From the NCBI RefSeq assembly GCF_004118375.1, contig NZ_SDHX01000001.1:1615693-1679692 (forward strand): a stretch of 64,000 nucleotides of DNA. Reading direction: 5' to 3'. Within the stretch, counting starts at the first letter, position 1. Each line of letters starts with the position of its first letter. The translations under genes and the position numbers were made by a program. This document shows, one piece after another, positions 23,520 to 61,812 of the stretch. The notes under the pieces were generated by a model. The model worked only from the letters and a program-made list of their open reading frames with translations. It ran no database searches and was not told the DNA's origin. The stretch comes from Oleiharenicola lentus (GTDB lineage Bacteria; Verrucomicrobiota; Verrucomicrobiia; Opitutales; Opitutaceae).

Positions 23520-24809
23520 ATGAGCCAGCCCCACTCGGACATCGGCCGGAAGCGGCAGCGGGAAATCTACGTAGCCGGTGTCGGCGGGCTGTCGCCGGTT
23601 GTGCCGGTGGCGCAGGCGGAGCTTGAAAAGGCGGCGCAGGTGGGGATGTCGCCCGAGGCCTGGGCCTACATCGCCGGCGGTGCCGGACGCGAGTCCACGA
23701 TGGACGCCAACCTGGCGGCCTTCGAGAAGTGGCGCATTGTGCCCCGGGTGCTGCGCGATGTCGAAAAGCGCGATCTCACCGTCGAGTTGTTTGGCCGGCG
23801 GCTGCCGGCGCCGCTGCTTTTGTCGCCCATTGGCGTCTTGGATATGGTGCATCGCGAGGCCGATCTCGCCGTGGGTCGCGCCGCGGCATCGCTGGACGTG
23901 CCGTTCATCTTTTCCAACCAAGCCTCATTCCCGATGGAGCAGGTGGCAGCAGCCATGGGCGATGCGCCCCGCTGGTTCCAGCTCTACTGGAGCCGGTCCA
24001 ATGATCTCGTGGCTTCCTTCGTGAAGCGCGCCGAGGCCTGCGGTTGCGATGCCATCGTGTTGACGCTCGACACGACGATGCTCGGCTGGCGTCCGCGCGA
24101 CCTCGACCTTGGGTCGCTGCCGTTCATCCAGGGGCAGGGGATCGCCCAATACACGAGCGACCCGGTGTTTCGGAAGGAATTGAAGGAACACGCGCCGGGG
24201 TCAGCGCGTTCCGCCCCGGAGATAAAACCGCCGCTCAACCTTCAGACCATCGCCACGGCGCTGGAGCAGAAGGCCAACTTCCCCGGCGGATTGCTCAAGA
24301 ACCTGTCCTCCGGCGAGCCACGGGCGGCGGTGCAGCGGTTCCTGACGACCTACTCCCGGCCGTCGCTGCAGTGGGACGACCTGAAATTCCTGCGCGCGCA
24401 CACGAAGCTCCCGGTCCTGCTCAAGGGCGTGCTCCATCCCGACGACGCCCGCAAAGCTGTCGAACTCGGGCTGGATGGACTGATCGTCTCCAACCACGGC
24501 GGGCGCCAGATCGACGGCGCGATCGCGTCGCTCGACGCCTTGCCGGCCGTCGTCGAGGCGGTACATGGCAGGATCCCCGTCCTTTTCGACAGCGGCGTGC
24601 GCGGTGGCGCGGATGTCTTCAAGGCCCTTGCACTCGGCGCCACCGCCGTCTGCCTCGGGCGTCCCTATGTTTACGGTCTGGCACTCGCTGGCCAGCGGGG
24701 GGTGGAAGAGGTCATCGCCAACGTGCTCGCCGAGTTCGACCTGACGCTCGGGCTGGCGGGTTGCACGAGCGTTCGGGGAATCGGCCGGGAATCGTTGCTA
24801 AAGATTTAG
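23520..24809 (+). CDS. FMN-dependent alpha-hydroxy acid dehydrogenase (lactate oxidase/dehydrogenase family)
   Basis: 429 aa from ATG 23520; the longer frame upstream lies in trpS. A TIM-barrel FMN enzyme: [18 protein letters not shown] near the N-terminus, [16 protein letters not shown] for the FMN loop, catalytic block [21 protein letters not shown] with His and Arg, and phosphate-binding [19 protein letters not shown]. Family members oxidise L-lactate, glycolate or mandelate; the substrate here is open. Glycolate/glyoxylate would connect to the purine island, but the gene is about 10 kb away, so this is only a thought. Confidence 0.9.
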
Positions 24810-33285: not shown

Positions 33286-33340
33286 GTAGCCGCTTTGGCG
33301 CGCAGCGACAAAGTGGTCGTCCCCTGGCCACGCTTTCGCC
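33286..33340. repeat. Intergenic copy of the element also found inside the amidase gene
   Basis: Shares GTAGCCGC, GGCGCG, GCGACAA, GGTCGTCC and ACGCTTTC in the same order with the 84-base element at 61008-61091 (minus strand), and GCTACA/GCGCAGCGACAA words with 48521-48556. It occupies the start of the 203-base gap between feoB and xdhC; the rest of that gap (33341-33470) is GC-rich without recognisable features. Confidence 0.65.
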
Positions 33341-33470
33341 TGCGGATTAAGCGCGGGCTGCTCGGCGAGCGAGCGGCAAGGCAGATCAGCCCCTCGTTCG
33401 CGAACGTCTGGCTTCACCCTTGCCGCAGCGGGGCCGGCCGGGCACGTTGCCTGCTCACGTCGTCGCGCCC

Positions 33471-48479: not shown

Positions 48480-48520
48480 GGGGAAGACCGGGGCGAAGAC
48501 AGAGCAGGCCTGCACGCGTT

Positions 48521-48600
48521 ACCACGTTGTCGCTGCGCTCCAACGCCGTTGCTACAGTAGACAACCGTTACTGTCATTCTGAGCGCAGCGAAGAATCCAG
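48521..48600. repeat. Two repeat fragments between the SHD1-like gene and adenosine deaminase
   Basis: 48521-48556 (ACCACGTTGTCGCTGCGC...GCTACA) matches the reverse complement of the start of 33286-33340. 48573-48600 is a single arm of the GTCATTCTGAGCGCAGCGAA family. The remaining bases up to 48645 include a small CCCGCGCGGAGCGCGGG hairpin. Confidence 0.7.
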
Positions 48601-59382: not shown

Positions 59383-60240
59383 GTGGACCTGATCGACGCG
59401 CACGTGCACCTTTACCCGATTGCGGTGAACCGCGACCCGGTGGGCTGGGCGACCGAACATGGCGAGGCGCACTGGGCGCAGCTCTGCACCCGCAAGCGCA
59501 AGGACGGCGCGCCCGTGCAGGCGTTTCCCACCATGGCGCAGCTCCTTTTCGACCTGAACGCCGCCGGCATCCGCCGGGCGGTGTTGATGGGCTGGTATTG
59601 GGAACGCCATGCGACCTGCGTGGAGCACAACCGGTTCTACGCCTCCTGCCTGCAGGCGTATCCGACGCGCTTCGCGGCCTTTGCGACCGTGCATCCCGAT
59701 GCCGGACAAAAGGCGCTCGACGAAATCCGTCGGGCGAAGGACGCCGGGTTCTGCGGCATCGGCGAACTGTCGCCGCACTCACAACACGTGCCGTTGGACG
59801 AGCCCGTCTGGCACCGCATCCTTGAGCTGGCCGCCGAGCTGGACATGCCCGTGAACCTGCACGTGACCGATCCCGCCTCGCGGCCTTATCCCGGCCGCGT
59901 GGACACGCCGCTCGCAGACTTCATCGCGATGGCGAAGGATTTTCCGAAGACGAATTTCATCCTCGCACACTGGGGCGGGGGACTGGCGTGGGCCGAGGCC
60001 GCCGCCGGCCTGCGCAACGTGTGGTTCGACACCGCCGCCTCGCCGCTGCTCTACGGCCCGGAGGTCTGGAAGAAGGGTCCGATCGGCCGCGTGCTGTTCG
60101 GCTCGGATTATCCGCTGATGCTTTACCCGAAGACCGGCGCCGGGCACGGCTTCGCCGACCTGCTCGCCGAAGCGAAGGCCGCGGGCGCCGACGACTCCAT
60201 CTTTCGCGTCAACGCGGCGACGCTGCTCGGCATCGAGTAG
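59383..60240 (+). CDS. Amidohydrolase-2 family protein (TIM-barrel metal-dependent hydrolase)
   Basis: 285 aa from GTG 59383, with GAAGG seven bases upstream. Motifs: IDAHVHLYPI (HxH), NLHVTDP, NFILAHWGGGLAWAEAA and LFGSDYPLM with the metal Asp. The amidohydrolase-2 family includes decarboxylases and lactonases; the substrate cannot be named. It follows the 8-oxoguanine deaminase on the same strand after a 151-base spacer of GC-rich sequence with GCGCGAAAGCGCC and GGAGCAAGGCGCTCC hairpin words. Its TAG stop lies in the outer arm of a palindrome shared with the convergent amidase. Confidence 0.85.
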   Translation: MDLIDAHVHLYPIAVNRDPVGWATEHGEAHWAQLCTRKRKDGAPVQAFPTMAQLLFDLNAAGIRRAVLMGWYWERHATCVEHNRFYASCLQAYPTRFAAFATVHPDAGQKALDEIRRAKDAGFCGIGELSPHSQHVPLDEPVWHRILELAAELDMPVNLHVTDPASRPYPGRVDTPLADFIAMAKDFPKTNFILAHWGGGLAWAEAAAGLRNVWFDTAASPLLYGPEVWKKGPIGRVLFGSDYPLMLYPKTGAGHGFADLLAEAKAAGADDSIFRVNAATLLGIE

Positions 60241-60433
60241 GGCCGGTCTCCGACCGGCCGGATGGCCCCCAGAAGGCCGAGTTCCCGCAACAGCGGAACG
60301 ACAGGCGCTGGATGCTTCGCTGAGCTCAGCATGACAGCAACGGAAGCAACTTTCTATGCGTGTCATTCTGAGCGCAGCGAAGAATCCAGCGAACGAGCCA
60401 TCGACTTCGCGGCCGTTCAGAGACCGGCCCTAC
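60237..60433. repeat. Nested palindromes joining two convergent genes and supplying both stop codons
   Basis: Perfect 14-base outer arms GTAGGGCCGGTCTC (60237-60250) and GAGACCGGCCCTAC (60420-60433). TAG in the left arm ends the amidohydrolase (60238-60240); its mirror TAG ends the amidase on the minus strand (60432-60430). Inside is a GTCATTCTGAGCGCAG-type palindrome with 27-base arms at 60309-60335 and 60362-60388. Confidence 0.88.
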
Positions 60434-61812
60434 CGGCTCAGCAGCCATGGCACGGCCGGGCTGTCGGCGGACGGTAGGATAATCTGCAGGCCGGCGGTCA
60501 GTCCGGAATTGAGCGGCACGGGGATCGTGAGCACGGGCAGGCCGGCGAGGCTGGCGGGGGCGGTGAGCGTGAGGATGTTGCGGCGCAGCTCGAGGTTCGC
60601 CTCGGTCTTGGTGGGTGCGACGCAAGGCACGGCGGGCAACACGAGGTAGTCGTAGGCGCGGAAGAAATCGCGGAAGACGGATCGCACCTCCGCGAGCCGC
60701 TCACGGGCACGGGCGATGTCGGCGGCGGGGAAATGGCCTGCGTCGGTGAAGCGTTTCCAGATGACGGGGTCGTAGTGTTCCCGGTAGGGCGCGAGCCAGT
60801 GGCGGTGCACGGCGTGGGCCTCGCTCATGCCGATGGTGATGTAGGACTCGACCGCGTGGTTCCACGAAAGGCTGAGCGCGGCCTCGGCGACCGGGTCGGC
60901 ATGCGCGCTCAGGCTGGCGGCGGCGTAATCGCAGGCGGTGGCGACGGCGGGGTCCATGCCGGGCACGAGTTTGCGGGCGTTGAGGTAGCAGCCCCTCGGA
61001 GGGGTATCCGGTAGCCGCGCTTGAGTCCCGGCTGGGCGGGATGAAAGCGTGGACGACCCCGTTGTCGCTTTCGCGCCCACGCGGCTACCGGTCCAAGCCT
61101 GCCATACCGCCAGCATGTCGCCCGCACTGGCGGTGAACCAGCCGGCGGTGTCCAGCGTGGGCGCGAGCGGGAAGGCGTCGCGGATGAATTCGTCGCCGGG
61201 CGAAAGGCGGAAACCGTGCAAACCGCACCACGCCGCCGGCACGCGGACCGAGCCGCCGGTGTCGGTGCCGATGGAGAGCGGCGCCACGCCTGCGGCGACG
61301 AGCGCGGCCGAGCCGCTGCTGGAGCCGCCGGACAACCGGTTGGGGAAACGCGGATGCGGGCAGTCACCGTAGTGTGGATTTTCGCCGGTCAGGCCGGAGG
61401 CGAATTCCACGAGATGGGTTTTGCCCGCGCAGACCGCGCCGAGTTCGCCGAGGCGTTGGACGATGCGACTGTCGGTCTTTGGCGCGGGGCGCACTTGGTC
61501 GAGAAACGTGGAACCCGCGCGCGTGGGCACACCGGCGAGGTCGAAGAGATCCTTCAGGAGATAGGGGATGCCGCGGAGGGGACGAGGGCGGGCCGCCGTG
61601 TCGGTCGCGGTTGGTGCGGAGACCGACCCTCCGGTAGAAAACTCGTGCGCCAGGTCAGGCTCCGGTTTCAGCCAGGCGACGGCGGCGCGGCGGAGATGAT
61701 CGGGCAGGGCGGCGACGCGGGCGTGGACTTCGCGGGCGGCGGCGTCCGGTGACAGGTTTTGCCACGCCGCCAGCGGCAATGGGTCTGGCGTTTTGGACGC
61801 GTTTGTATCCAT
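60430..61812 (-). CDS. Amidase-signature family hydrolase with two repeat-derived inserts
   Basis: 460 aa from ATG 61812. The Ser-cisSer-Lys triad is visible: CAGKTHLVEFASG (Lys), LSGGSSSGSAALVAAG (nucleophile region) and IGTDTGGSVRVPAAW. It hydrolyses an amide; substrate unknown (indole-acetamide-like, ureide or allophanate-type). Two inserts are repeat-encoded: STGGSVSAPTATD near residue 62, and 28 residues (84 bases, 61008-61091) between AVWQAWT and the NARKLVPGMDP segment. Both lie between conserved blocks and keep the frame. It is divergent from the ABC ATPase gene, start codons 12 bases apart. Confidence 0.88.
   Translation of the reverse strand: MDTNASKTPDPLPLAAWQNLSPDAAAREVHARVAALPDHLRRAAVAWLKPEPDLAHEFSTGGSVSAPTATDTAARPRPLRGIPYLLKDLFDLAGVPTRAGSTFLDQVRPAPKTDSRIVQRLGELGAVCAGKTHLVEFASGLTGENPHYGDCPHPRFPNRLSGGSSSGSAALVAAGVAPLSIGTDTGGSVRVPAAWCGLHGFRLSPGDEFIRDAFPLAPTLDTAGWFTASAGDMLAVWQAWTGSRVGAKATTGSSTLSSRPAGTQARLPDTPPRGCYLNARKLVPGMDPAVATACDYAAASLSAHADPVAEAALSLSWNHAVESYITIGMSEAHAVHRHWLAPYREHYDPVIWKRFTDAGHFPAADIARARERLAEVRSVFRDFFRAYDYLVLPAVPCVAPTKTEANLELRRNILTLTAPASLAGLPVLTIPVPLNSGLTAGLQIILPSADSPAVPWLLSR
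61008..61091. repeat. 84-base palindromic element in frame inside the amidase gene
   Basis: Perfect 12-base terminal inverted repeats CCGGTAGCCGCG (61008-61019) and CGCGGCTACCGG (61080-61091). The total length is exactly 28 codons with no stop in the amidase frame. Internal words match the intergenic copy at 33286-33340. Confidence 0.85.
61613..61632. repeat. Half-copy of the GGTGCGGAGACCGACC element inside the amidase gene
   Basis: These 20 bases (GGTGCGGAGACCGACCCTCC) are identical to 63689-63708 in the intergenic palindrome at 63642-63720. They encode part of STGGSVSAPTATD in the N-terminal region of the amidase. Confidence 0.7.

Follow-up and report, generated by a model that had tools for sequence, protein, structure and literature searches.

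A GTAG-tagged REP pair in the open frame of an amidase gene of Oleiharenicola lentus, and REP families that recur in the same enzyme loops of its relatives

Opitutus terrae belongs to the Opitutaceae, as does Oleiharenicola lentus, the source of the DNA analysed here. In the available text of the account of GTAG REP families by Di Nocera et al. (2013, PMC3733652), O. terrae is the species richest in intragenic GTAG repeats, and these inserts code for 20-30 residues. The same text describes tags whose TAG serves as a stop codon and an association of GTAG REPs with RAYTs, and it suggests that an insert falling in a flexible linker or loop could be neutral. It also reports that the recB genes of two Xanthomonas carry different REPs at about one site, and that other related genes carry them at different sites. 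REPINs were defined in Pseudomonas fluorescens SBW25 (Bertels and Rainey 2011, PMC3116915). A further group, the Rickettsia palindromic elements (Ogata et al. 2000, 2002, as cited in the available parts of PMC2229807 and PMC3733652), are 105-146 bp long or CGTC-tagged and have Rickettsia hosts; among them RPE-4 and RPE-6 are CGTC-tagged and REP-like, and no dedicated transposase is reported for them in those parts.

The window, the whole stretch of 64,000 nucleotides analysed, contains an amidase gene in which the sequence-only reading had noticed an 84-base palindrome with 12-base inverted repeats. These ends (61008-61019, ccggtagccgcg, and 61080-61091, cgcggctaccgg) do match perfectly, and the minus-strand amidase frame has no stop across 61008-61091. 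The family to which the palindrome belongs ends in GTAG and CTAC, so on sequence comparison the element proper is the 78 bases from 61011 to 61088 on the minus strand, and the flanking CCG/CGG that lengthen the ends to 12 bases belong to the amidase site. The features of the window that bear on this element are as follows.

60430..61812, minus strand: amidase (PF01425), with a putative start codon; the element follows about residue 240
61011..61088, minus strand: head-to-head pair of GTAG REPs (REPIN), type A, through which the amidase frame reads
61057..61088, minus strand: unit 1, GTAG tag and hairpin, two stem positions off the consensus CCGCGTTG...CAACGTGG
61053..61056, minus strand: spacer of 4 nt (median over 24 aligned copies, 11 nt)
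61011..61052, minus strand: unit 2, inverted: CCACGCTT, inner hairpin, AAGCGCGG, with the CTAC tag last
61600..61632, minus strand: probable decayed REP in amidase loop 1, identified by eye; an intact-looking palindrome lies there in G013
33286..33356, plus strand: intergenic copy of the amidase-element family, second hairpin short, found by profile
48516..48550, minus strand: half copy, unit 1 alone, found by profile (E 5e-5)
60411..60433, minus strand: single GTAG REP of other sequence, whose TAG is the amidase stop codon
60237..60259, plus strand: partner GTAG REP; the convergent ORF 59383-60240 stops at its TAG

The last two form a GTAG REP pair that closes two convergent genes, and a further repeat-like stretch (gtcattctgagcgcagcgaagaatccagcg) lies between them at 60362-60391.

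The 84 bases had been described as 28 codons inserted exactly in frame. They are free of stops and the frame is kept, but the 84-mer lies off codon boundaries and the amidase loop, 56 residues here against 36 in the nearest empty relative, is only 20 residues longer, so no clean gap with an exact footprint emerged. Neither a clean empty site nor a target duplication was seen among the related amidase loops compared, which vary in length and sequence and include no close empty site. As single-stranded DNA the element folds more strongly than any of 200 dinucleotide shuffles, with z -3.95 and -5.23 for the two strands. Rfam, run over the window and three loci, returned one match only, a tRNA.

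In the host genome (G000; 4.71 Mb, two contigs), where the window spans C1:1615693-1679692, blastn with the 84-mer gave at least 33 matches at E<=1e-3 (best non-self 2.2e-16), a lower bound, since 40 of the 57 first-look candidates were scored. An iterated profile, built from these matches and run over 31 stretches and the window, raised this to at least 38 separate places after merging, some of them partial; the count covers those stretches and the window, and diverged copies elsewhere would escape the profile. The kinship proposed between the amidase element and an intergenic copy was borne out, as the profile finds 33286-33356 with E 7.2e-11. The copies are mostly intergenic: 2 of the 38 were flagged as intragenic by a rough test, which does not amount to an annotation. 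Hexamers of the window served to train the coding score, and a place was flagged if a frame scored as coding on both sides and was open through the element. Besides the amidase copy, the flagged one lies in an FGGY kinase in L097 (PF02782, PF00370), which we take from its motifs to be a rhamnulokinase and whose frame is likewise open through the element, so that the family has in-frame insertions in two conserved genes.

The consensus of 24 copies reads GTAGCCGCGTTGGAGCGCAGCGACAACGTGGTC, then a variable spacer, then CCACGCTTTCATCCCGCnnnnGCGGGACTCAAGCGCGGCTAC. An exact GTAG start is found in 19 of the 24 and an exact CTAC end as well in 11; each unit carries the tetranucleotide at its outer end (GTAG and CTAC in the window copy), and the inverted pair with a spacer is the usual repeated unit. 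Under a fold of two unit hairpins, 14 cells are changed on both sides of a pair against 3.0 in shuffles, and the covariation score is 0.114 against 0.066, neither value being reached in any of 500 shuffles. The double changes fall in unit 1 (columns 9-28, 6; columns 10-27, 4) and, within unit 2, in its inner hairpin (3 and 1), so that both units form stem-loops with compensating changes; in the 24 aligned copies no double change affects the unit 2 outer stem. The number of pairs with a double change (4 vs 2.2 shuffled, 38 of 500 as high) and the number of pair types (10 vs 11.2) show no clear excess. G-T pairs are present in the tag strand of the family. A cruciform of the outer arms was rejected as the conserved fold, as it scores below the two unit hairpins (7 cells, 0.093). 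Its anatomy, the covariation and the number of copies identify the element as a REPIN, in which two REP hairpins with GTAG tags stand head-to-head, and it would be a non-autonomous, presumably mobile, element. Among 150 genomes of the bacterial family, 12 match the 84-mer at E<=1e-3 among the matches listed (at most the best six candidates per genome), the best of those outside G000 being 1.2e-8 in G019, so the family is patchy in its present form. A second repeat, ccctcgacaggctcggg...gagcttgtcgaaacgg, is nested in the unit 1 loop of five places:

L003:2325-2463, L094:1412-1541, L105:1503-1627, L106:1501-1661, L108:1496-1656: places with the nested repeat

The host genome has four Y1_Tnp matches. 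The ORF at L116:1417-1953 (contig C2) is RAYT-like, matching NF047646 (REP_Tyr_transpos) with E 7.3e-14 and 51.9 bits, below the NCBI cut-off of 80, and Y1_Tnp with E 4.8e-5 and 23.9 bits, just above the cut-off of 23. The stop codon of this ORF overlaps the start of a consensus unit of the amidase-element family (1950-1984, E 5.8e-8); upstream lie weaker and degenerate units of the family, which lack clean GTAG tags, so that family units flank the gene on both sides. By these flanking units the L116 gene is associated with the amidase-element family, which it may mobilise. L113, L114 and L115 were rejected as partners, with no convincing family unit within about 1.5 kb (E 2.8, none and 4.5, respectively). 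The Y1_Tnp gene L113:921-1922 has inverted ggggtcatgctttacctttt ends on both sides, which recall the TIR-flanked tyrosine transposases described in the available text of PMC3733652.

The element belongs with the GTAG REPs and REPINs, as is seen from its GTAG tag, its pair of inverted hairpins and the units of its family on both sides of a RAYT-like gene; a GTAG REP pair inside a gene is of a kind already known in the Opitutaceae. As in the portion of PMC3733652 that deals with O. terrae, we find the tag, head-to-head pairs, inserts of 20-30 residues, a RAYT and TAG stops, a likeness at the level of description. Unlike the cases reported there, apart from recB, three enzymes here have loops in which several REP families turn up again. 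The inverted REP doublet as repeated unit, with spacer and hairpin, is shared with the REPINs of SBW25, again by description only, and the accessible text of PMC3116915 analyses those in extragenic space. The sequence-only reading had compared the insert with the Rickettsia palindromic elements, which are likewise palindromes read in frame inside conserved proteins (PMC2229807 and PMC3733652, as far as their available parts go). The comparison holds for an in-frame added peptide, a multicopy palindrome and a distant lineage; it fails as an identification, as the tag is GTAG where the REP-like Rickettsia elements, compared by description, have CGTC. The accompanying suggestion that such elements can be tolerated as coding sequence agrees with a multicopy palindrome being read through by the open amidase frame. 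None of the literature titles concerned different REP families reusing the same protein loops, in a survey that left most subscription papers outside its scope.

Amidase relatives were taken from 21 genomes labelled as one genus and from named records, and the loop was read from the TAGWFT motif, except in L126 and L015, which escaped the pattern and were read separately. In general, the loop is 34-38 residues long in amidases at least 57% identical to the window amidase, and within this set every loop of 40 residues or more carries a GTAG REP; in more distant amidases the loop can reach 45 residues with no GTAG pair in it. The loop of G013 (taken to be L009) holds the same REP family as the window amidase, that of G017 holds GTAGGGTCG...CGACCCTAC, those of G015 and of L011 (G164) hold GTAGGGCG...CGCCCTAC, and that of G006 has a single GTAGGGCTGCCGC hairpin. 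The insert of the window amidase recurs only in G013/L009 among the amidase loops compared, one contig counted once and belonging to an Oleiharenicola sp. record labelled as the same genus, and the same residues did not turn up in unrelated genera. The blast matches listed number, for the G017 type, 59 (G017), 34 (G015) and 25 (G014), for the L011 type, 43 (G015), 23 (G017) and 7 (G164), and for the G013 insert, 6 in its own genome, with no match in G001, G009 or G017; these figures are not copy numbers, as palindromes may match twice and at most 40 candidates were scored. The three insert types searched are multicopy in the relatives' genomes.

In a loop-free tree the empty G001 stands beside G000 (99/97), and G013 falls outside both with weak support (81/55), so that an insertion shared by G000 and G013 needs a loss or a second event. 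A simple shared insertion is favoured in the sequences by two indels that the amidase inserts of G000 and G013 have in common, an extra base and a shortened spacer. The two inserts differ by 9 bases, in frame, in the inner hairpin, and the G013 insert fits two other short-hairpin copies of G000 slightly better (50.0 and 49.9 vs 45.9). Amidase loop 1, near residue 60, has REP pairs in G017, L011, G006 and G002; L132 and L121 have insertions there as well, 22 and 12 residues long, in which no REP was recognised. In an amidase loop at L011:1913-2020, half of a REP-like hairpin of another type comes directly after a REP pair, and the whole stretch is in frame.

Two loops of the rhamnulokinase orthologs carry REP pairs. 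Loop 1, near alignment column 219, has them in G013, G009 and G017. Near column 333 (loop 2), 9 of the 16 orthologs are empty, and the others hold the G000 family (G000), GTGGGAGGGGC-type pairs (G013 and G015, with a GTAG form in G011), the GTAGGGGCG type (G014 and G008) or the GTGGAGCGC type (G010). The G010 gene has an extra single unit near column 26, outside both loops. A survey of 400 kb of G017 gave 25 GTAG pairs, of which 2 were flagged as intragenic and 1 is credible, in an FMN-dependent dehydrogenase; the other flagged pair (L228) was rejected, its host ORF being judged spurious by eye. With GTAG or GTGG tags, 76 candidates were obtained in G017 and 29 were flagged. Among the FMN dehydrogenase orthologs the G017 type is also present in G015, another type in G008 and a single GTGG unit in G010, all types being assigned by eye, and the window contains a counterpart.

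23520..24800, plus strand: match to the presumed FMN-dependent alpha-hydroxyacid dehydrogenase, the enzyme with a REP pair in G017, G015 and G008
24185..24212, plus strand: decayed single GTGG-type REP in the FMN dehydrogenase loop, by eye against G010

Pairs were counted with a detector that accepts GTAG tags, or GTGG tags with a fold z < -3.5, within a coding frame; GTGG was counted only under this threshold, as it otherwise gives many chance hits. The amidases have 8 pairs in 19 genes (6 of 19 carry any), the rhamnulokinases 9 in 16 (8 of 16) and the FMN dehydrogenases 3 in 10 (3 of 10). A total of 20 pairs were thus detected in 45 orthologs, all 20 within five loops, and 17 of them are unprompted, as one pair per gene was the reason for examining that gene. 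The 38 control orthologs of genes that we take to be helicase (18), allantoinase-like (13) and deaminase-like (7) gave 0 pairs; the deaminase set is a weak control, with three orthologs at 83-84% and another three at 42-44%. Before the GTGG filter there were 14, 10 and 4 candidates in the three enzymes against 2, 4 and 2 in the controls. The species are related and their orthologs are no independent trials, so no probability is attached to these counts, and the detector overlooks pairs that are visible by eye (L190, L131). The amidase scan covered 22 genes and the count 19, without L014, L015 and L016; the rhamnulokinase set leaves out L199 (gene cut by contig ends) and the FMN set L241 (split gene). 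L009/L118 (both 54316 in length, with the same loop), L010/L120, L012/L121 and others of equal length were taken as one contig each, of which only the L117-L134 member was counted. The helicase orthologs L286-L303 have 7 insertions of at least 8 residues near the C-terminus, none with a REP.

A total of 23 coding REP tags were tabulated (18 GTAG, 5 GTGG). None of the GTAG tags stands in the phase in which its TAG would be a stop, and just two tags do stand in it, both of them GTGG; this follows from the frames being open and reflects what selection has left. The types occupy different nucleotides, and partly different phases, in the FMN loop, in amidase loop 1 and in loop 2 of rhamnulokinase, which favours separate insertions. 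In one clade of amidase loop 2, three types sit at the identical point, nt 64 (L122, L123, L124), and in rhamnulokinase loop 1 three stem sequences share one point, with CCCGAG before the tag (L187, L194, L200). Identical points for different types, as aligned here, are beyond what loop tolerance alone predicts. The fewest changes by type on the trees are 6 for amidase loop 2, 3 for amidase loop 1 (with L132 and the probable decayed loop 1 REPs of G000 and G013 scored as empty) and 7 for rhamnulokinase loop 2, on a rhamnulokinase tree in which 8 of 13 inner branches are open. A single insertion inherited by all relatives is rejected, as types and phases differ.

We consider it very probable that a few permissive loops retain REP pairs mobilised by RAYTs and become filled with them time and again. 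The pair would most likely have been spread by a RAYT and have landed in an exposed amidase loop, at a phase and with a net length that preserved the frame, and the insert would have survived since the loop tolerates extra residues. Permissive loops in this genus would be refilled by REP pairs of different families, and a few loops of a few enzymes would be recurrent landing places. The peptide itself is most likely a tolerated passenger evolving as ordinary coding sequence, and an enzymatic role is not part of this claim. For mobility the reading draws on the copies and the RAYT-like gene, no transposition having been seen. Against it, not all loop growth is due to REPs, as the L132 and L121 insertions and the distant loops without a GTAG pair indicate.

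The shared points also allow a stricter view, which we hold only tentatively and put at somewhat under even chances: some loops may be fixed sites that different REP families re-enter, through target preference or replacement. Close species would then receive different loop peptides of 20-30 residues at the same codon. It is rather unlikely, if conceivable, that this happens by replacement in place, with a resident REP exchanged for one of another family, for instance by a RAYT cutting at GTAG/CTAC junctions, in which case one old insertion per loop would look like many. Replacement in place would account for the exact points shared by three types in amidase loop 2 and three stems in rhamnulokinase loop 1, and for the G000 and G013 inserts agreeing in their extra base and short spacer and differing by the 9-base hairpin change; it sits poorly with the types that differ in nucleotide and partly in phase within the FMN loop, amidase loop 1 and loop 2 of rhamnulokinase, and with the many empty relatives, presence alone needing at least 6 changes in amidase loop 2 and at least 7 in rhamnulokinase loop 2.

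How the insert behaves as protein was judged from models and from substitutions. The amidase matches PF01425 with E 8.9e-63, has biuret hydrolase 6c62 among its nearest solved sequences, and is modelled by AlphaFold, on 29 aligned rows, with a mean pLDDT of 86.8. K87, S164 and S188, which we take to be the catalytic residues, are invariant in 29 of 29 aligned rows (29 of 38, omitting L023, L035, L046, L052, L058, L068, L075, L081 and L087). The insert, read as about 26 residues judging from the open frame, lies in a region (residues 241-270) with block pLDDT of 43-64; residues 250-262, between the helix 230-241 and the strand 274-276, fall below 50, and the loop is predicted to be disordered. 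Low values are also found by loop 1 (block 61-70, 63) and, without an insert, at 101-105 and 137-147 (<50). Between G000 and G013 the insert has pS 0.28 and pN 0.07 (5 silent and 3 replacement differences; Fisher p 0.049) over 20 codons aligned by hand with the unalignable middle omitted, and the amidase outside it has pS 0.55 and pN 0.13 (pN/pS 0.24), a similar ratio. Intergenic copies in the same frame have a median pN/pS of 0.88, and 5 of the 219 control pairs used (of 253; pairs not independent) are as low as the insert. Small as the numbers are, this suggests a coding-level constraint on the insert. Its lower pS compared with the gene equally fits a possibly younger insert or a constraint at the DNA level.

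The gene-like ratio would also be expected if the added peptide altered the behaviour of the enzyme and were kept for that. We regard this as improbable: the ratio rests on eight changes in 20 hand-aligned codons with non-independent control pairs, the low pS leaves room for DNA-level constraint or younger age, the nearest relative in the tree (G001) has no insert, and the loop is predicted to be disordered. Still less probable is a function of the RNA or DNA structure (mRNA stability, termination, gyrase) with the copy in the gene by chance. The strong folds and the G-T pairs in the tag strand would suit it, and such roles for REPs are proposed in the available text of PMC3733652, but the amidase copy has lost two unit 1 stem positions relative to the family consensus, and 36 of the 38 places were not flagged as intragenic, which ties no function to the amidase gene. 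That the amidase is a dying pseudogene gathering repeats, as repeat-like sequence in two of its loops might hint, is hardly credible given the open frame, the strong Pfam match, the invariant K87, S164 and S188 and the pN/pS of 0.24 outside the insert.

The reading we prefer, repeated filling of a few permissive loops by REP pairs, bears on the old question of whether intragenic REP pairs are accidents, tolerated or used. One genus offers a natural series here, the same enzyme and the same loop, empty or filled by unrelated REP peptides, which makes tolerance, targeting and replacement separable. The series also shows one way in which mobile DNA can diversify protein loops. Most worth pursuing is that different REP families keep returning to the same few loops.
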